From Rathayibacter oskolensis (GTDB lineage Bacteria; Actinomycetota; Actinomycetes; Actinomycetales; Microbacteriaceae), in assembly GCF_900177245.1 (NCBI RefSeq), contig NZ_FXBM01000001.1, positions 1 through 64,000 of the forward strand: a stretch of 64,000 nucleotides of DNA, written 5' to 3'. The position numbers and the translations under genes are program-made. Below are positions 55,501 to 64,000 of the stretch, in pieces. The notes below the pieces were generated by a model. It saw nothing but the letters and a program-made list of their open reading frames with translations, was not told where the DNA came from and made no database searches. Each line of letters opens with the position of its first letter. Positions within the stretch are counted from its first letter, which is position 1.

Positions 55501-56832
55501 ATGACCGAACACTTCCTCCTCCCCGATGTCGGCGAGGGCCTCACCGAGGCCGAGATCGTCGAGTGGAAGGTCAAGGTCGGCGACGAGGTGGCCGTCAACC
55601 AGGTGCTCGTCGAGATCGAGACCGCGAAGTCGCTCGTCGAGCTGCCCTCGCCCTTCTCGGGCACCGTCGTCGACGTGCTCGTCGAACCGGGCCAGACCGT
55701 CGACGTCGGCACCCCGATCATCACGGTGCAGTCCGGCGCAGGAGCCGTCGGCTCCGAGATCCCGGCGATGCCCGCTCAGGCGGCGACCGCGGCGCTCCCC
55801 GCCCCCTCGACCACTGAGCCCGGAGAGGGTTCGGGAGCCGCGCTCGTCGGCTACGGCACCGCGGGCGGCCACGTCGCCACCCGCCGTCGCCGCCCGGGCT
55901 CTGCCGCACCGGAGGCGCCTGCCCGCCCGGCCGCCCCCGTGCGCCCCACGTCCGTCCCCGCCGCCGCGGCGCTGCCCGTCATCGCGAAGCCGCCGATCCG
56001 CAAGCTCGCGAAGGACCTCGACGTCGACCTCCTCCAGGTGCAGGCCACCGGCCTCGCCGGCGAGGTCACCCGCGACGACGTCATCCGCCACGCCTCCCAG
56101 GCCAGCGTCTTCCGCAACATCCAGACGCCGGAGTGGGGCGACTCGCGCGAGGAGCGCATCCCGGTCCGCGGCGTCCGCAAGGCCATCGCGGCGGCGATGT
56201 CGCACAGCGCCTTCACCGCCCCGCACGTCAGCGTCTTCGTCGACGTCGACGCGACCCGCACGATGGAGTTCGTCAAGCGGCTGAAGAACTCGCCCGACTT
56301 CGCCGGCGTCAAGGTCTCGCCGCTGCTGATCATGGCCAAGGCCATCATCTGGGCGGTCAGGCGGAACCCCACCGTCAACTCCGCGTGGACCGACTCCGAG
56401 ATCATCGTGCGCCACTACGTGAACCTCGGCATCGCGGCCGCCACCCCGCGCGGACTCATCGTCCCGAACGTCAAGGACGCCCAGTCGATGAGCCTCCTCG
56501 AACTCGCGCAGGCCCTCGAGAACCTGACCCTCGCCGCCCGCGACGGCAAGACGCAGCCCGCCGACATGCAGAACGGCACCATCACGATCTCGAACATCGG
56601 GGTCTTCGGCATGGACACCGGCACCCCGATCCTCAACCCCGGCGAGGTCGCGATCATCGCCCTCGGCACCATCAAGCAGAAGCCCTGGGTCGTCGACGGC
56701 GAGGTCCGCCCTCGCTTCGTCACGACGGTCGGCGGATCCTTCGACCACCGCGTCGTCGACGGCGACGTCGTCAGCCGCTTCGTCGCCGACGTGGCCAGCG
56801 TGCTGGAGGAACCGGCGCTGCTGCTCGATTAG
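55501..56832 (+). CDS. 2-oxoacid dehydrogenase E2 (dihydrolipoyl acyltransferase)
   Basis: 443 residues. One lipoyl domain (1-80) with lipoyl Lys43 in [13 protein letters not shown], a Pro/Ala hinge, an E3-binding domain ([20 protein letters not shown]), and a catalytic acyltransferase domain ending SFDHRVVDG with His416 and Asp420. It passes the acyl group from E1 to CoA. There is no lpd (E3) gene in the window, so E3 must be shared from elsewhere. Confidence 0.93.
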
Positions 56833-57392
56833 GTCGTCTCCTCCTTCGTCGTCGACGACCTCGCGGTCGGCTCTCGTGGGTGGTCGCGTTCTGAAGAGCG
56901 GGTTGCGTACCGCTACGGCGAATCGCTGGGACGCGATTCGGCGGTGAGCTCGGCCTTGCTCGACTGAGCGGATTCCTCCTTCGTCGTCATCCGCTCCGCG
57001 GTCGGGCTGTTGTTGGATTGAGCGGATTCCTCCTTCGTCGTCATCCGCTCCGCGGTCGTCCCTCGTAGGTGGTTGCGATTCGCAGAGCGGGTTACGTACC
57101 GCTACGGCGAATCGCTGGGACGCGATTCACCGGTGAGCTCGGCCTTGTTCGTGTGAGCGGATTCCTCCCTCGTCGACGACTTCGCGGTCGGCTCGCGTAG
57201 GTGGGCGCGATGCGTAGGGCGGGTCGCGTACCTTTACGGCGCATCGCGGGGTCGCGACTCGGTGGTGAGCTCAGCGGTGCTCGAGTGAGCGGATCACGAC
57301 AGAGTGCACCAGCGCGGTGCGACCGGGGGGAGGGGTCCCGCTCCGCTGACGCGGTGGGCGAGCATCCGCGATCCCAAGGGGACGCGCGGCGG
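56833..57392. repeat. 560-bp non-coding block of tandem direct repeats and hairpins
   Basis: Two identical 40-bp direct repeats lie at 56965-57004 and 57019-57058, each containing gagcggat...atccgctc, an 8-bp inverted repeat around a 15-nt loop. A second unit appears at 56896-56939, 57085-57128 and (diverged) 57217-57260: gagcgggt..gcgtacc followed by cgaatcgc-tgggac-gcgattcg, an 8-bp hairpin. Degenerate copies of the first unit start at about 56839 and 57154. No gene is credible. It lies between convergent genes. Confidence 0.85.
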
Positions 57393-58304
57393 TCAGCTCA
57401 CCTCCTGAGCACGGGTCGGCCCCGGCAGCCGCAGCAGGCCGCCGGGGGAGCGGATGGTCGCCGCGGCCACCGTCATCGCGCGCGTGAGCACGGCGCCCGG
57501 ATCGACGGCGCCCTCCGCCATCGCCGCCACGACCGTGGCGAAGGTCGCGTCGCCCGCCCCCATCGTGTCGACGACGGCGCCCGGAGCGTCGGCGACCGGG
57601 GCGGAGGTGCGCGTCGACCGCCCGACGAGTGCCGCGCCGAGCGGTCCTGCGGTCTCGAGCACTGCACGGGCTCCGGTCGCGAGGATCCGGTCCGTGGCCT
57701 CCGCGAGACCGGTGCCGAAGACGAGGTCGGCGTCCTCCGCGCCCAGCTTGACGAGGTCTGCGCGGGCCGACAGCGCCAGGAGCGCCTCGGCGAACGCGCT
57801 GGGGTCGCGGAGCAGGCCCGGCCGCGGGTTCGCGTCGATCGCGAGCCCGGTCGCCGCGGGCACCAGGTCCGAGAGCATCGCCGCCTCGGCCGGATCATCG
57901 AACGGGAAGCCGCTGACGACGATCAGATCGGCGCGGGCGGCGGCGGCGCGCAGCTCGTCGGTCGGAACCAGGGTGCGCGAGCGCGAGGCGTCGGAGAAGG
58001 AGTAGCGGGGCTCCGCATCGGTCCTGTCCGACACGGCGCGGCCGGTGCCTCGAGGCGCAGGGGTCGCGAGGAGGGGCACGCCGTGCGCGAGCAGATGGTC
58101 GCGGAGCAGTCGTCCGGCAGCGTCGTCGGCGACCATCCCCACGAGCAGGGACGGTGTTCCGAGGACGGCGAGCCCGACCGCGACGTTCAGCGCGGAGCCG
58201 CCCGGCACGTCGAGCGAGCCGGCGCGGTCCCGCATCTCGTCGATGAGGACGTCGCCCAGCACGAGCACGCGGGCGGAGGAGCTGGAGAGCGATTCGGCGG
58301 ACAT
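57393..58304 (-). CDS. PfkB-family carbohydrate kinase (fructokinase candidate)
   Basis: 303 residues. PfkB signatures: an N-terminal GGSALNVAVGLAVLGTPSLL and a C-terminal DTMGAGDATFATVVAAMAEG holding the catalytic Asp and anion hole. It phosphorylates a sugar with ATP in the cytoplasm. It is the last gene of the fructan operon; GH32 releases fructose, so fructokinase activity fits, but ribokinase-like specificity cannot be excluded. A gap of 71 nt separates it from the LacI gene. Confidence 0.88.
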   Translation of the reverse strand: MSAESLSSSSARVLVLGDVLIDEMRDRAGSLDVPGGSALNVAVGLAVLGTPSLLVGMVADDAAGRLLRDHLLAHGVPLLATPAPRGTGRAVSDRTDAEPRYSFSDASRSRTLVPTDELRAAAARADLIVVSGFPFDDPAEAAMLSDLVPAATGLAIDANPRPGLLRDPSAFAEALLALSARADLVKLGAEDADLVFGTGLAEATDRILATGARAVLETAGPLGAALVGRSTRTSAPVADAPGAVVDTMGAGDATFATVVAAMAEGAVDPGAVLTRAMTVAAATIRSPGGLLRLPGPTRAQEVS

Positions 58305-58375
58305 GGCGCCTTTCGACGAGGAGTGCGGGCGCGCCGGACGGCGCCCCGGGCGGGACGGAGAAGCGATGCTCCGAG

Positions 58376-59428
58376 TCAGAGAGCCGCTGCGGGCGGTCGG
58401 ACGGAGTCGCGGGGGACGAGCGGGCAGGGCAGCAAGACGGGATGGGAGGCCAGGAGCAGCTCCTCACCGGATCCGGCGATGAGCCGCACCAGGGTGTCGA
58501 CCGCCCAGGCGCCCATCTCGTAGTGGGGGAGGGCGACGGTGGTGAGCGGCGGGTGGAGGCCCTCCGCGATGATCTCCTGGTTGTCGAAGCCGACGATGGA
58601 GAGGTCCCCCGGGATGTCGATGCGGAGTTCGGCCGCGGCTCGGTAGGCGCCCATCGCCATGCGGTCGTTGTAGCAGAACAGGGCGGTGGGCCGGTCGGGG
58701 CGGGAGAGGAGCCGGGTGCCGGCGCGGTAGCCTCCGGGGCTCTCGGAGACCTCCTCGACGATGAGCGACTCGTCGACCGGGATGTGGGACTCGGCGAGGA
58801 CCTCCCGGTAGGCCTGGAGCCGCAGCCGGGTCGCGGGGACGTCGTCGCGGTTCGTCAGGAAGCCGATGCGCCGGTGCCCCGCGGCGACGAGCTCCGTCAC
58901 CGCGGCCCTCGCGCCGCCCAGCTCGTCCGGCACCGCGGAGGGGATGCGGCCCTCGGTGTCGCGCGCGTCGATCAGCACCGAGGGCACGGCGTGCAGCGAC
59001 TCCGGGAGCGTGACCTCCCGGTGGAACATCGTGGCGAACAGGATGCCGTCGACCTGGTTGTCCATCAGCGCGCGGATGTCGGCGCCGAGGTCGGAGGAGT
59101 CGCGCATGGTGTTGATCACGACGAGCGTCAGCCCGTGCGCCTGGGCCGCCTCCTGGGCTCCGAGGATGATGCGACCGGCGTGCGGCGTGGTCGCGATCTC
59201 CTCGCTGATCAGGCCTATCATCTCCGAGCGCTGACGGCGGAGGCTCCTGGCGATCCGGTTGGCGCCGTAGCCCAGGCGCGCGGCCGTCGCCCGGACCCGC
59301 TCCCGCGTCTCCTCGCTCGCCCGCGCGGACTCGACGTCGTTGAGGATGTGGGACACGGTCGTCACCGAGACGCCCGCCTCACGAGCGACGTCGCGGATGC
59401 CGACTGCCTTCTGGGTCACGTCTCCCAC
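58376..59428 (-). CDS. LacI/GalR-family transcriptional regulator
   Basis: 350 residues from GTG 59428 (GTG 59419 is an alternative). HTH: IRDVAREAGVSVTTVSHILN at about 11-30, followed by the hinge helix RVRATAARLGYGANRIARSL. The effector domain has IGLISEEIATTPHAGRIILG and PTALFCYNDRMAMGAYRAA. It likely represses the fructan genes and relaxes on a sugar or sugar phosphate. The probable operator is the 29-bp palindrome at 62698-62726. It lies inside the operon, between the permeases and the kinase. Confidence 0.93.
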   Translation of the reverse strand: MGDVTQKAVGIRDVAREAGVSVTTVSHILNDVESARASEETRERVRATAARLGYGANRIARSLRRQRSEMIGLISEEIATTPHAGRIILGAQEAAQAHGLTLVVINTMRDSSDLGADIRALMDNQVDGILFATMFHREVTLPESLHAVPSVLIDARDTEGRIPSAVPDELGGARAAVTELVAAGHRRIGFLTNRDDVPATRLRLQAYREVLAESHIPVDESLIVEEVSESPGGYRAGTRLLSRPDRPTALFCYNDRMAMGAYRAAAELRIDIPGDLSIVGFDNQEIIAEGLHPPLTTVALPHYEMGAWAVDTLVRLIAGSGEELLLASHPVLLPCPLVPRDSVRPPAAAL

Positions 59429-59472
59429 ATCCTTCGTCGCTCAGGCGTCGAGACTATCGCCCGCAGAGCCGC

Positions 59473-60312
59473 TCATCCCTTGACCGCACCGAGGGTGAGG
59501 CCGGCGACGATGTGCCGCTGCAGGACGAGGGTCAGCAGGATGACGGGGAGCGAGTAGAGCACGGCGAGTGCTGTCATCGCGCCCCAGTCGAGCCCGAACT
59601 GCGTCTGGAAGTTGGCGATCACGATCGGAGTCGTCTGGGCGCGCACCGCGGTGAGCAGGAGGGCGAAGAGGAACTCGTTCCAGGACGCGAGGAACGCGAA
59701 GATCGCGGTGACCGCGACTCCGCCCGCCGTGACCGGGATCACGACGCGCCACAGCGCGCCGAGTCTCGAGGCCCCGTCGATCTTGGCCGCCTCCTCGAGC
59801 TCGCCCGGGACCGCCTCGAAGAAGCTCGACATGAGCCAGATGGAGAGAGGGAGCGAGATCGTGGTGTGCGCGATCGCCAGAGCGAGGGAGGTGTCGGCGA
59901 TGCCGAGCGTGCGGAAGATCGAGATCATCGGAGCGCCCACGACGATCGGCGGGACCATGCGCATCACGAGCGCGCCGACGATGAAGATCCTGCCGAGCCG
60001 CGTGCGGAAGCGCGTCACCGCGTAGGCCGCGGGGATCGCCAGGACGAGCGAGACGGCGGTGCTCAGGATCGCGGTGACGACGCTGTTGATGAACGAGGCG
60101 ACCACGCCGTCACGGCTGAGAGCCGCGGCGTAGTTGTCGAGTGTCCACTGCGTGGGCAGGATCCGAGGGGGGACGGCGATCGTCTCGAGCGGCGTCTTGA
60201 ACGACGTCAGCAGCATGTAGACGAAAGGGAATCCGTAGAGGACGACGGCGAGGGCGAGGACGATCCAGATGATCGTCCGCGGGCCGACGCGGGTGGCTTC
60301 GAGTCCGTTCAC
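59473..60312 (-). CDS. Carbohydrate ABC transporter permease, MalG type
   Basis: 279 residues, six helices, with the EAA loop EEAAKIDGASRLGALWRVVI contacting the ATPase. The N-terminal TSFKTPLETIAVPPRILP is typical of CUT1 permeases. It overlaps the MalF-type gene by 4 bp. No ATPase gene is in the operon, as is common for CUT1 systems that share MsmK/MsiK. Confidence 0.95.
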   Translation of the reverse strand: MNGLEATRVGPRTIIWIVLALAVVLYGFPFVYMLLTSFKTPLETIAVPPRILPTQWTLDNYAAALSRDGVVASFINSVVTAILSTAVSLVLAIPAAYAVTRFRTRLGRIFIVGALVMRMVPPIVVGAPMISIFRTLGIADTSLALAIAHTTISLPLSIWLMSSFFEAVPGELEEAAKIDGASRLGALWRVVIPVTAGGVAVTAIFAFLASWNEFLFALLLTAVRAQTTPIVIANFQTQFGLDWGAMTALAVLYSLPVILLTLVLQRHIVAGLTLGAVKG

Positions 60313-61283
60313 GAGGTGCTCTCTCCTCCGGGTCGCCAGATCGTGAGGATCGCGACGAGGGCGACGGCGAGCATCACGACGAGGTACACCGTGCCCATCG
60401 CGCTCGCGAGCCCCGGATCGCCGAACCGGATCATGGTGCGGTAGATCAGCAGCGACATCGTCTCGGTGCTCTGCTGCGGTCCACCGTTGGTCTGGATGAG
60501 GATGACGTCGAACGCCCGCGCCGCGTCGATCCCGCGCAGGATGAGCGCGACCGCGATCACCGGCCGCAGGAGCGGGATGACGATGCGGAAGAGGATCGAG
60601 TGGTACCGGGCGCCGTCCAGGCGCGCGGCCTCAATCACGTCACCGGGGATGTTCTGCAGCCCGGCGAACAGCACCAGGGTGATGAACGACGTGGTCAGCC
60701 AGATGTCCGGGATCGCGACAGAGAAGAGCGCGATCGACGGGTCGCTCAGCCAGGCGATCTGCCCGGGCGAGGACAGGATGCCGACGCGGCTCAGGACCTC
60801 GTTGACGATGCCGAAGTTGTCGATCAGGAGGAACCGCCAGAGCAGTCCGGCCACGATCGGGGCGATCATCAGCGGGTACAGGAAGATCGTCCGGAACACC
60901 CGCGACGCGTCGCCGAGCGCCGTGAACAGCAGGGCGACGCCCAGGCCGAGGACGAACTCGAGCGCGACCACCACGACCGTGTAGACGAGCGTCCGCCAGG
61001 ACGCGTTGAGGAAGTCGGGCGAGCCGAACGCGGTGAGGTAGTTGCCGAGACCGACGAACGCGCGGCTGCCGGCGATCGGATCGATCTCGAAGAAGGAGTC
61101 GCCGACGAACTGCAGGAGCGGCCATCCGACGAAGGCCGCCAGGAAGAGGGCGGCGGGTACCATCAGCAGCGCCGCGAAGCGGCGATCGGTGAGGCCGCGG
61201 CGCGGGGCCCGGCGCCCGGGCCCGGCCGGGGACGTCCCCGGCCGGGCGGCGGTCACCGGAGGTGCGCCGGTCGTGGAGGTCAC
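60309..61283 (-). CDS. Carbohydrate ABC transporter permease, MalF type
   Basis: 324 residues from GTG 61283, overlapping the binding-protein stop by 4 bp. Polar N-terminus, then six helices; EAA-type motif VIEAARLDGARYHSILFRIV. Typical CUT1 segments include RAFDVILIQTNGGPQQSTET. It pairs with the MalG-type permease to carry an oligosaccharide across the membrane. Confidence 0.95.
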   Translation of the reverse strand: MTSTTGAPPVTAARPGTSPAGPGRRAPRRGLTDRRFAALLMVPAALFLAAFVGWPLLQFVGDSFFEIDPIAGSRAFVGLGNYLTAFGSPDFLNASWRTLVYTVVVVALEFVLGLGVALLFTALGDASRVFRTIFLYPLMIAPIVAGLLWRFLLIDNFGIVNEVLSRVGILSSPGQIAWLSDPSIALFSVAIPDIWLTTSFITLVLFAGLQNIPGDVIEAARLDGARYHSILFRIVIPLLRPVIAVALILRGIDAARAFDVILIQTNGGPQQSTETMSLLIYRTMIRFGDPGLASAMGTVYLVVMLAVALVAILTIWRPGGESTS

Positions 61284-62599
61284 TGGGCCACCAGCGACTC
61301 GACCTGCTGCTTCGCCGCGTCGAGGAGGGCCTGGTTGTCGGCTCCCGGCTCGACGGCCTTCTGCAGCATCGGCACGAGCACGGTGTCGACGATCTGCTGC
61401 CACTCGGCCACCGCCGGGCGGGGCAGCGTGGCGGGGGAGTTCAGAGTGTCGAGCAGCGGCCCGTAGTTCTCGTAGCCCTCGACGTCGGCGTACTTCTCGA
61501 GCACCGAGATGCGGGACGCGAGCCCGAGGCTCGTGTCGGCGCTCAGCTCGTTGTGGTCGAAGGCGTACTGCACGAACTCGAGCGCCTTCTCCTGCTTCTG
61601 GCTCGCCTTCGCGACCGAGAGGTACCAGGCTCCGGGGACTCCCGCGGGTCCGGCGTCGCCGCCGATCATCGGGGCGACGCCCACGTTCCCGGCGACGGCC
61701 GCGTCGGCGGGGATCTGGCGGTAGGCGTGCGCCCAGAAGCGCATCATCGCGGTCTTGCCCTGGTTGAACAGGTTCTGCGCGCCGGCCCAGTCGAGCTGCG
61801 CCGCGCCGGGAGGGGAGTAGGGCAGCAGGCTGGTGTAGAAGTCGAGCGCCTTCTTGCTGTCGGCGTCGCCGAGCGAGACGGTCCCGTCGGTGTCGGTGAC
61901 CATGGTGGTCTCTCCGGTCTGCGAGAGGGTGGCGAGCCACTCCGTCTCGACGGCGCCCTTGACGTCGGTGCCGTAGAGGTCGGGGGTGCCGTCGCCGTCG
62001 GTGTCCTGGGTGAAGAACTCGGCGGCGTCGGTGTACTGCTGCCAGGTGGTGGGCGGCACGAGGTCGTAGCCGTACTCGTCCTTGAACGCCGCCTGCTGCG
62101 CCGGGTCCTCGAAGAGGTCGGTGCGGTAGTAGAGGATCTCGGAGTTGGTCCACGCGGGCATGCCGACGTAGCTGCCGTCGACCTGCGCCTCCTGGACGAG
62201 GGAGGGGAACAGGTCGGAGACGACGTCATCGGTGTAGAGGTCGTCGAGCGGAGTGACCGCGCCGGCGAAGGCGGGCAGCCAGATGGCGTCGAGGGCGGCC
62301 ACGTCGAACGAGACGCTGCCTGAGGAGAACTCGCTGTTCAGGCGGTTGTAGAGGCCGTCGTAGGGGAGCTCGACGAACTCGATCGAGGTTCCGGTCTCCT
62401 CGGCGTACTGGTCGGCGATCGGCTGCAGTTCGCCGTGGCCGCCCGCTTCGACGAGAACGGTCACGGTGTCGGCGTCGCCGGAGGCGCCGGTGCCGCCGCC
62501 GGCACCGCAGCCGGTGAGGACGACGGCGGCCGTGAGGGCGACGGCGCCGACCTGGAGGAGTCGGCGGGCAGGGCGGGAAGCAGGTCTGCGAAGCGACAT
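61280..62599 (-). CDS. Extracellular solute-binding lipoprotein (CUT1, family 1)
   Basis: 439 residues from ATG 62599 (GGAG 8 nt upstream). Lipobox LTGC gives Cys31. Family 1 features include FVELPYDGLYNRLNSEFSSG, FDVAALDAIWLPAFAGAVTP and GAWYLSVAKASQKQEKALEF. It binds an oligosaccharide outside the cell. With the GH32 enzyme divergent, a fructo-oligosaccharide or sucrose-type ligand is likely. It is the first gene of the leftward operon. Confidence 0.93.
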   Translation of the reverse strand: MSLRRPASRPARRLLQVGAVALTAAVVLTGCGAGGGTGASGDADTVTVLVEAGGHGELQPIADQYAEETGTSIEFVELPYDGLYNRLNSEFSSGSVSFDVAALDAIWLPAFAGAVTPLDDLYTDDVVSDLFPSLVQEAQVDGSYVGMPAWTNSEILYYRTDLFEDPAQQAAFKDEYGYDLVPPTTWQQYTDAAEFFTQDTDGDGTPDLYGTDVKGAVETEWLATLSQTGETTMVTDTDGTVSLGDADSKKALDFYTSLLPYSPPGAAQLDWAGAQNLFNQGKTAMMRFWAHAYRQIPADAAVAGNVGVAPMIGGDAGPAGVPGAWYLSVAKASQKQEKALEFVQYAFDHNELSADTSLGLASRISVLEKYADVEGYENYGPLLDTLNSPATLPRPAVAEWQQIVDTVLVPMLQKAVEPGADNQALLDAAKQQVESLVAQ

Positions 62600-62695
62600 C
62601 ACTTCGGCTCCAATCGAGAGCGCTTGAGCGGAGGGAGGGGGTGGGCCGGTGTCGACGACGGCCCCGGGACCCCAGCATGCAACGAATCCCGAAGA

Positions 62696-62725
62696 TTGAC
62701 AATACGTTTTGCCAAAACGTATTGT
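62696..62725 (+). promoter_or_regulatory. Promoter of the GH32 gene (TTGACA - 18 bp - TATTGT)
   Basis: TTGACA at 62696-62701 is a perfect -35 and TATTGT at 62720-62725 a good -10. The -10 lies 7 nt before ATG 62733, so the mRNA is probably leaderless. The operator palindrome covers the whole spacer and most of both boxes. Confidence 0.75.
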
Positions 62726-62726
62726 C
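62698..62726. promoter_or_regulatory. Perfect 29-bp palindromic operator between divergent fructan genes
   Basis: gacaatacgttttg (62698-62711), a central c (62712), and the exact reverse complement (62713-62726). It is far too long and AT-rich for chance in this DNA and overlaps both divergent promoters. The LacI-family protein at 58376 is the obvious binder; inference. Confidence 0.85.
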
Positions 62727-62728
62727 AC
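62699..62728 (-). promoter_or_regulatory. Promoter of the leftward transporter operon (GTGACA - 18 bp - TATTGT)
   Basis: Because of the palindrome, the minus strand holds GTGACA (62728-62723) and TATTGT (62704-62699) with the same 18-bp spacing. Transcription would start near 62692, leaving a leader of about 90 nt before ATG 62599. Confidence 0.6.
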
Positions 62729-62732
62729 TTCC

Positions 62733-63998
62733 ATGACCACCACCTCTCCGGATGCCGCCGAGCGCGCCGTCTCCGCCGCCGTCCGCCCCCGGATCCACTT
62801 CACGGCCGCGACCGGCTGGATCAACGATCCGCACGGGATCACCTTCCACGAGGGGCGCTACCACCTCTTCCATCAGTACGTCCCGGGCTCGGCCGTCTGG
62901 GCGCCGAACTGCCACTGGGGTCACGCGGTCGCGACGGACCTCCTGCACTGGGAGCACCGTCCGATCGCGCTCGCTCCGGGCGACGGGGACGGCGGGATCT
63001 GGACGGGCAGCCTCGTGGTGGCCGAGGACGGCGCGAGGATCCTCTACACCTCGACCGTCGCAGACGACTACGCGCGGGGGCGGATCCGCGTCGCACGACC
63101 GGTCGACGAGAGCTGGGACCGCTGGGAGAAGGGGCCGGTGCTCCTCGACGCGCCGGCGGAGGCGGACGTCGTGGTCTTCCGCGACCCCTTCGTGCTGCGC
63201 GAGGGCGACGGCTGGCGGATGTTCGTCGGGGCCGGCACGTCGACGGGCGAAGCGCAGGCGATCACCTACACGTCGAGCGATCTCGCCTCGTGGGAGTACG
63301 ACGGAGTCGCCGCGCGACGCTCCTCGAGCGAGCGCGAACCCGTGTGGACAGGGGCGCTGTGGGAGTGCCCGCAGGTCGTCGAGGTCGACGGCCGCCACGT
63401 GCTGATCAGCTCGGTCTGGGACGCGGACGTGCTGCACTACGCGGCCTACGGGATCGGCGACTACGCCGAGGGGCGCTTCGAGGCGCGCGACTGGGGACGG
63501 CTCAGCTTCGGCGACTCCTACTATGCGCCCTCGTTCTTCCGCGACGCCGAGGGCCGCCCCTGCTTGATGTTCTGGATGCGCGACGTCGAGGACGCGGAGG
63601 CCGGCTGGAGCAGCGCGCTCAGCCTCCCGCACCTGCTCGCAGTGCGCGAGGAGAGGCTCGTGCTGCTGCCTCACCCGGCGTGGTCGGGTGTCCGTCCGGT
63701 CGAGCCGGGTGAGGCGGGGGACGGCCCCGTGCGCATCGACTGGACGCCGGAGCACTCCGGCGATCGCCTCGAGATCGCTCCGTCGACCGCGCTCGTGTGG
63801 AGCGCGGGGGAGCTCGTGCTGGAGCGGGAGGGATCGGAGCCGTGGACCGCGCCGCACGCGGGCGGCCCCGTCGCCGTGGTCCTCGACGGGCCGGTGCTGG
63901 AGGCGGTGACCACGGCCGGAGTTCTGGGCGGACCCATCGCGCCGGCGGTGTCGGTGCGGGTGCACGGCGGCCGGGCGTCCGCGTCCGCCCTCGACTGA
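62733..63998 (+). CDS. Glycoside hydrolase family 32 (levanase/sucrose- or fructan-hydrolase type)
   Basis: 421 residues from ATG 62733; an upstream TTG lies inside the operator and is rejected. GH32 motifs: WINDPHG with nucleophile Asp32, FRDPF with Asp151 as transition-state stabiliser, and WECPQV with Glu211 as acid/base. There is no signal peptide, so it acts inside the cell on imported fructans or sucrose, releasing fructose. The C-terminal beta-sandwich is short. It is divergent from its presumed transporter. Confidence 0.93.
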   Translation: MTTTSPDAAERAVSAAVRPRIHFTAATGWINDPHGITFHEGRYHLFHQYVPGSAVWAPNCHWGHAVATDLLHWEHRPIALAPGDGDGGIWTGSLVVAEDGARILYTSTVADDYARGRIRVARPVDESWDRWEKGPVLLDAPAEADVVVFRDPFVLREGDGWRMFVGAGTSTGEAQAITYTSSDLASWEYDGVAARRSSSEREPVWTGALWECPQVVEVDGRHVLISSVWDADVLHYAAYGIGDYAEGRFEARDWGRLSFGDSYYAPSFFRDAEGRPCLMFWMRDVEDAEAGWSSALSLPHLLAVREERLVLLPHPAWSGVRPVEPGEAGDGPVRIDWTPEHSGDRLEIAPSTALVWSAGELVLEREGSEPWTAPHAGGPVAVVLDGPVLEAVTTAGVLGGPIAPAVSVRVHGGRASASALD

Positions 63999-64000
63999 CG

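Follow-up and report, generated by a model that had tools for sequence, protein, structure and literature searches.

Pairs of LacI-family operators about 13 bp apart were reported by Ravcheev et al. (2014) upstream of 110 operons, and the available text of that survey leaves their binding mode unexplained (PMC4052901). According to the same text, overlapping sites of this kind are conserved and were functional in one case, gntKU (PMC4052901, citing Tsunedomi et al. 2003a). Among titles and abstracts after the 2014 survey, with most subscription journals outside the search, we recognised no later explanation of the 13-bp pitch. A scan of the gap between gntR and gntK of E. coli K-12 (L095) gave four pseudo-palindrome centres with at least 6/9 pairs, two of them 13 bp apart. 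These two 18-bp pseudo-palindromes, AATGTTACCGATAACAGT (7/9) and ACAGTTACCCGTAACATT (6/9), were chosen from the four listed because the available part of the survey reports overlapping sites there (PMC4052901). The same gap contains ATTGTCCGGCTGGACAAT (8/9 half-site pairs), whose centre lies 15 bp upstream of the first overlapping GntR-type site.

The site described here resembles the ~13-bp sites of the survey, as far as these are described in its available text, in that sugar-use genes are preceded by two LacI-type operators whose centres are about 13 bp apart; it differs in that its pair may form a perfect palindrome of 31 bp and contains promoter hexamers in loci with a divergent gene (PMC4052901). 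At gntKU, GATAAC-A-GTTACC between the two centres has the same 6-1-6 layout as GTTTTG-N-CAAAAC in the present site, whereas the half-site is another one, the second centre is CC and not CG, and there is neither a divergent gene nor a perfect palindrome. The tandem operators of RafR and ScrR (21-22 bp) are likewise paired as a rule within one regulog, but according to the same partial source they are non-overlapping with helical-turn spacing, while those described here are 13 bp apart, out of phase and overlapping (PMC4052901). By its genes, with operators left uncompared, the LacI-GH32-alphaFFase1-ABC operon of Bifidobacterium dentium is also similar, since it too combines LacI, GH32 and an ABC transporter for a difructose anhydride; as far as the available text goes, it uses alphaFFase1 for DFA I, in contrast to the GH91 DFA-IIIase found here (PMC8605356). 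The same text describes a three-stage route in Arthrobacter, in which inulin is converted to DFA III outside the cell, taken up and hydrolysed inside (PMC8605356). A DFA III or inulin regulon of Actinobacteria finds no mention in the available part of the 2014 survey (PMC4052901). The arrangement of 13-bp overlapping LacI operators is already known; what is new is its occurrence in an actinobacterial regulon, probably one for inulin / DFA III.

The palindrome and its two operators

We analysed a 64,000-nucleotide stretch of Rathayibacter oskolensis DNA (the window), in which the palindrome lies between a GH32 gene and divergently oriented transporter genes, as follows:

57393..58304, minus strand: sugar kinase of the PfkB family, possibly a fructokinase (fructokinase is the best-scoring NCBIfam model, with 72 bits where the cut-off is 450)
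58376..59428, minus strand: LacI-family regulator (PF00356, 8.9e-14; recognition helix GVSVTTVSHILN), probable repressor of the palindrome site
59473..60312, minus strand: ABC permease 2
60309..61250, minus strand: ABC permease 1 (the stretch scanned; start codon uncertain)
61280..62599, minus strand: sugar ABC transporter substrate-binding protein (PF01547, 5.5e-28; start at 62599 or 62602)
62697..62727, no strand: very probable compact double LacI-type operator, the 31-bp palindrome (ahead of the transporter operon, the 13-bp pitch is found in 34/35 loci)
62697..62714, plus strand: operator 1, TGACAATAC and GTTTTGCCA on the two sides of a centre between C62705 and G62706 (0 mismatches to TGNCAANACGTNTTGNCA)
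62710..62727, plus strand: operator 2, TGCCAAAAC and GTATTGTCA on the two sides of a centre between C62718 and G62719 (0 mismatches to TGNCAANACGTNTTGNCA)
62733..63998, plus strand: GH32 beta-fructosidase-like gene (PF00251, 5.6e-63), probably leaderless

The initial annotation had described a 29-bp palindrome with 14-bp arms around a single central base. Its place was correct but its size was not: the maximal perfect palindrome is 31 bp long (62697-62727), TGACAATACGTTTTG C CAAAACGTATTGTCA, with 15-bp arms that are 100% complementary around C62712. In 40 order-1 Markov simulations of the 64-kb window, whose GC content is about 70-75%, the longest perfect arm was 9-13 bp, although this model is somewhat lenient, as the real window also contains an unrelated repeat with 14-bp arms at 61220-61247. 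The latter, a 28-bp perfect, GC-rich inverted repeat with no loop, lies within or beside the gap that separates the binding-protein gene from the permease genes. Nine relatives were scanned at this gap; seven carry repeats of 5-8 bp, and long unrelated ones are present in L021 (13 bp) and L011 (16 bp). The repeat is possibly an mRNA hairpin that separates the expression of the binding-protein and permease genes.

We found that each arm of the palindrome carries its own CpG-centred LacI-type operator, TGNCAANACGNNTTGNCA, at 62697-62714 and 62710-62727, with the centres 13 bp apart. The pattern TGNCAANACGTNTTGNCA, with at most two mismatches, has exactly two matches in 64 kb, both in the palindrome, where 0.03 would be expected. 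LacI-family operators are even palindromes of 16-22 bp with a central CG in the available text of the survey (PMC4052901), and both sites agree with this, being 18 bp long with 7/9 half-site pairs and a CpG centre. The inner 6-bp half-sites GTTTTG (62706-62711) and CAAAAC (62713-62718) are intact on both sides of C62712. A palindrome results from two dyad-symmetric operators with an odd pitch if their outer half-sites agree. Searching for a third operator near the site gave none at up to six mismatches in 130 bp on the GH32 side and one six-mismatch match on the transporter side.

Conservation of the operator pair and its probable regulon

The comparison covered 35 loci, namely the window, 12 from GH32-seeded searches, 19 from the operator pattern and three from a binding-protein search; as they are related, the counts are not independent events. 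Rows L058, L059 and L061 (the loci of L001, L002 and L017) and the second listing of L056 were dropped, and longer stretches were substituted for short loci. Operator-carrying relatives include Rathayibacter, an unclassified Microbacteriaceae strain, Agromyces, Microbacterium and Actinomyces.

Among 23 GH32-seeded relatives, for which the pitch was not presupposed, the pair stood at exactly 13 bp in 12/12 with an orthologous transporter (binding-protein gene) and in 0/11 without one, one of these 11 (L009) having only 634 bp upstream and being no fair negative. A binding-protein-seeded search in one genus gave seven matches in 89 genomes, four of which were already in the locus set; six of the seven carry the 13-bp pair, and the last has a degenerate operator 2 with the CAA-to-CAA pitch unchanged. 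Pattern scans, which presuppose the pitch, detected the double site in 18/398 and 5/297 genomes, giving 22 loci (three being copies of L001, L002 and L017), all immediately upstream of the binding-protein gene. Overall, the 13-bp pair is present in 34/35 loci, the window included, 19 of the 35 having been found by the pattern. By its conservation in the ortholog group, the pair corresponds to a ~13-bp overlapping LacI double operator. A LacI ortholog is linked to the operator in 34/35 loci, and the sole exception in both respects is L088, at a contig end. All 34 linked LacI orthologs have the recognition helix TTVSH, versus 1/16 other LacI proteins among those listed in these loci, so that the site is linked to a LacI-type gene with a group-shared recognition helix.

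The central base is C in 11, G in eight and T in two of 21 distinct sequences, in all of which its two neighbours are invariant; in L088, a later addition, one neighbour differs. Operator 2 has a degenerate outer half, within the tolerance of the pattern, in L046, L048, L051, L055 and L060, and the CpG of operator 2 is lost in L088, indicating that operator 2 is less constrained than operator 1. Single CpG-centred operators of the same type were found upstream of inulin fructotransferase genes (L001, L002) and of a DFA-IIIase gene (L072), showing that the CpG-centred unit occurs alone. These read CAAAACG(T/A)TTTG (L001:11181, L002:11297, L072:2471), unlike the outer half-sites of the double operators, which are mostly the variants CAAGAC or CAATAC.

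Further repeats were observed upstream of some double operators. In L012, L013, L018 and L019, an inverted repeat like CGCCAAAATTCTTTGGCA starts 61 bp upstream, with 3, 3, 5 and 6 mismatches to the operator, and is perhaps a third operator bracketing the promoter; L020 has a repeat similar by eye, and L018 and L020 have another one 123 bp upstream with three mismatches. Inspection by eye also found at least two direct half-site repeats TTTGGCA, ~8-10 bp apart and ~20-80 bp upstream, in L075, L079 and L080, and weaker ones in L074, L076, L077, L078, L081 and L083. They extend to the -35 element of the transporter promoter, and their direct, not inverted, half-site order is odd for a LacI protein.

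We then considered what the genes are for. In 30/35 loci a DFA-IIIase relative, defined by at least 60% identity to the L001 copy (which is counted too), was found no more than 9 kb from the operator; the remaining five are the window, L003, L080, L081 and L088. Over its full length, the L001 copy matches a DFA-IIIase of solved structure (5zks, 4e-221). An inulin fructotransferase-like gene is present in 9/35 loci, the L001 copy matching 2inu (5e-137). The window ends at the GH32 stop, so a DFA-IIIase farther out would fall outside it; in the close relative L073 this gene is ~3.3 kb beyond the GH32 gene, and the DFA-IIIase with its own single operator (L072) belongs to the genome of L003. Taken together, the guarded genes probably serve the use of inulin and DFA III, which would also be the substrate in the window.

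Proposed occupancy of the 13-bp pair

On these results, the palindrome very probably serves the linked LacI-family repressor (58376-59428) as a compact double operator that guards both directions. One bound LacI dimer had been proposed to block both polymerases; the LacI gene is indeed linked, and its bound product would cover promoter elements both ways, but a site made of two CpG-centred operators 13 bp apart gives no support to a single dimer. The promoter elements are the following:

62696..62701, plus strand: GH32 promoter -35, TTGACA (identical in 5/5 close loci)
62720..62725, plus strand: GH32 promoter -10, TATTGT (18-bp spacer; identical in 5/5 close loci)
62723..62728, minus strand: -35 of the mirror promoter of the initial annotation, GTGACA (the same in 5/5 close loci)
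62699..62704, minus strand: -10 of the proposed mirror promoter, TATTGT (kept in 3/5 close loci; TCTTGT in L001 and L002)
62697..62702, minus strand: alternative transporter -35, TTGTCA (5/5 close loci)
62674..62679, minus strand: alternative transporter -10, CATGCT (17-bp spacer; 5/5 close loci; inside TGCATGCTG)

The operators, their pitch, the embedded hexamers and the linked LacI gene are read from the sequence, and from them we infer binding and repression as follows. Two 18-bp CpG-centred operators at a 13-bp pitch keep the inner half-sites GTTTTG and CAAAAC intact around one variable base. Without inducer, the repressor would cover 62697-62727 and occlude the -35 and -10 elements of GH32, both built into the outer half-sites, as well as the -35 of the transporter promoter; the inducer, presumably DFA III or a fructo-oligosaccharide product, would release both promoters. 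In this model the repressor has to cover both promoters, and each operator by itself would overlap the -35 or the -10 of GH32. By PDB match, window LacI can be aligned with E. coli LacI (360 residues) over residues 2-328 of the latter and extends only eight residues farther. The C-terminal part of E. coli LacI makes that protein a tetramer, and since so few residues follow the aligned region, this part is probably absent from window LacI.

We lean towards two dimers bound side by side, ~86 degrees apart, over one dimer alternating between registers. In a crude steric model with assumed dimensions, a pitch of 13 bp would place neighbouring HTH domains at a distance of 27 A, and one of 12 bp at 18 A; 13 bp was the smallest non-clashing pitch (of at least 11 bp) in 69, 52 and 28 of 84 parameter sets at cut-offs of 22, 25 and 28 A, which leans weakly to side-by-side binding. 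Against co-binding, the available text of the survey holds that dimers at a ~13-bp pitch cannot interact (PMC4052901).

It is quite possible, if somewhat short of probable, that only one LacI dimer binds at a time, in either of two mutually exclusive overlapping registers, with the doubling raising occupancy and covering either promoter element. The pentamer TGNCA is common to both 18-bp operators, and the regulon includes other genes with single operators. Moreover, the available survey text places base contacts in the 7 bp nearest the operator centre, the zone into which a ~13-bp overlap falls (PMC4052901). However, alternating registers alone leave the near-invariant 13-bp pitch unexplained (12/12 and 6/7 where the pitch was not presupposed), together with the 13-bp pair of E. 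coli gntKU, which has another half-site, and the 13-bp peak in the part of the survey available (PMC4052901).

Promoter elements within the operators

The initial annotation had explained the palindrome by two overlapping mirror-image promoters. The -35/-10 pairs with 18-bp spacers are present on each strand as it described, and are the only promoter-like sites in 56800-64000 (7.2 kb; shuffles gave a mean of 0.2). That such promoters, under one central LacI dimer, produced the palindrome through their own symmetry is nonetheless improbable. In its favour, both pairs are found in the window and the same hexamers recur in L003 and L073. However, the double operator is present with or without a divergent GH32 gene: among 22 loci without it, 21 carry the double operator, the exception being L088 with its degenerate second operator, and five of the eight perfect palindromes in the 35 loci are among them. 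Besides, TATTGT stands on both strands in only 3/13 divergent loci (the window, L003 and L073), which rules out the mirror-image pair as a conserved unit, and the CpG that marks the centre of isolated operators is missing from the central dyad TGNCA.

A mirror-image promoter towards the transporter also fared poorly. Its -10 is TCTTGT in 2/5 close loci, while TTGTCA-17-CATGCT is kept in 5/5. On the minus strand, TGCATGCTG (window 62673-62681) is invariant in five close loci amid variable sequence; it also contains the palindrome GCATGC. CATGCT matches TATAAT at 3/6 positions and the mirror -10 at 4/6, so we prefer CATGCT for its conservation alone (5/5 versus 3/5 close loci). Promoter elements and operator thus overlap on both sides, but the mirror-image form is limited to the window, L003 and L073.

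In 13/13 loci with a divergent GH32, and in 0/22 others, the operator pair contains an embedded TTGACA-18-TATTGT on a single strand; this element points to GH32 in five (the window, L073, L003, L001 and L002) and to the transporter in eight. In all eight of the latter, the GH32-directed mirror -10 lacks the A, and for GH32 a CATACT or CATAAT lies immediately outside the operator. Where no GH32 gene diverges, the last base of a hexamer with A2 and T6 lies 2 nt ahead of the operator in 21/22 loci (3 nt in L011), and TTGAC precedes this hexamer by 17-18 bp in 19/22, the latter by our own reading. The proposed leaderless GH32 transcript is likely: the ATG follows TATTGT by 6-7 nt in 5/5 close loci (7 nt in the window), leaving no room for a ribosome-binding site upstream of it if transcription begins at the predicted start.

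That the palindrome serves as a 5' hairpin of an mRNA is very unlikely indeed. The paired columns of 23 distinct sequences do co-vary above shuffles (0/500 reach the score) and slid controls, and the predicted start site is inside the operator in loci without a divergent GH32. In the 13 divergent loci, however, a start from the embedded promoter would fall at or beyond the end of the palindrome, which would then not be transcribed from there. Pair 3/29, with the most two-sided changes (six sequences), is demanded by TTGACA and TATTGT, which need A at position 3 and T at position 29 in divergent loci. Pair 7/25 is unpaired in 9/23 sequences and pairs 3, 4 and 5 in five or six of 23, and the inner pairs hardly vary and say little. 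By pair counting, an RNA hairpin was rejected, the covariation being accounted for by dyad-symmetric half-sites and embedded hexamers. A single LacI dimer on the odd dyad at C62712 was likewise disfavoured, as isolated operators are CpG-centred and its half-sites would run in reverse.

Returning to side-by-side binding, we propose a fuller version tentatively, as more doubtful than probable: two dimers may bind the 31-bp site at once with their neighbouring recognition domains touching in one major-groove stretch, 13 bp being the closest non-colliding pitch, as a general cooperative mode, with a promoter written into the pair and its direction flipped between lineages. The embedded promoter itself runs towards GH32 in one lineage and towards the transporter in another. 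The operator is now assigned to a probable inulin / difructose anhydride III regulon, which offers a clean test system: the palindrome is perfect, the pitch hardly varies, the repressor gene is linked, and single operators within the regulon can serve as controls. If true, a cooperative two-dimer mode would account for the 13-bp peak across the LacI family.
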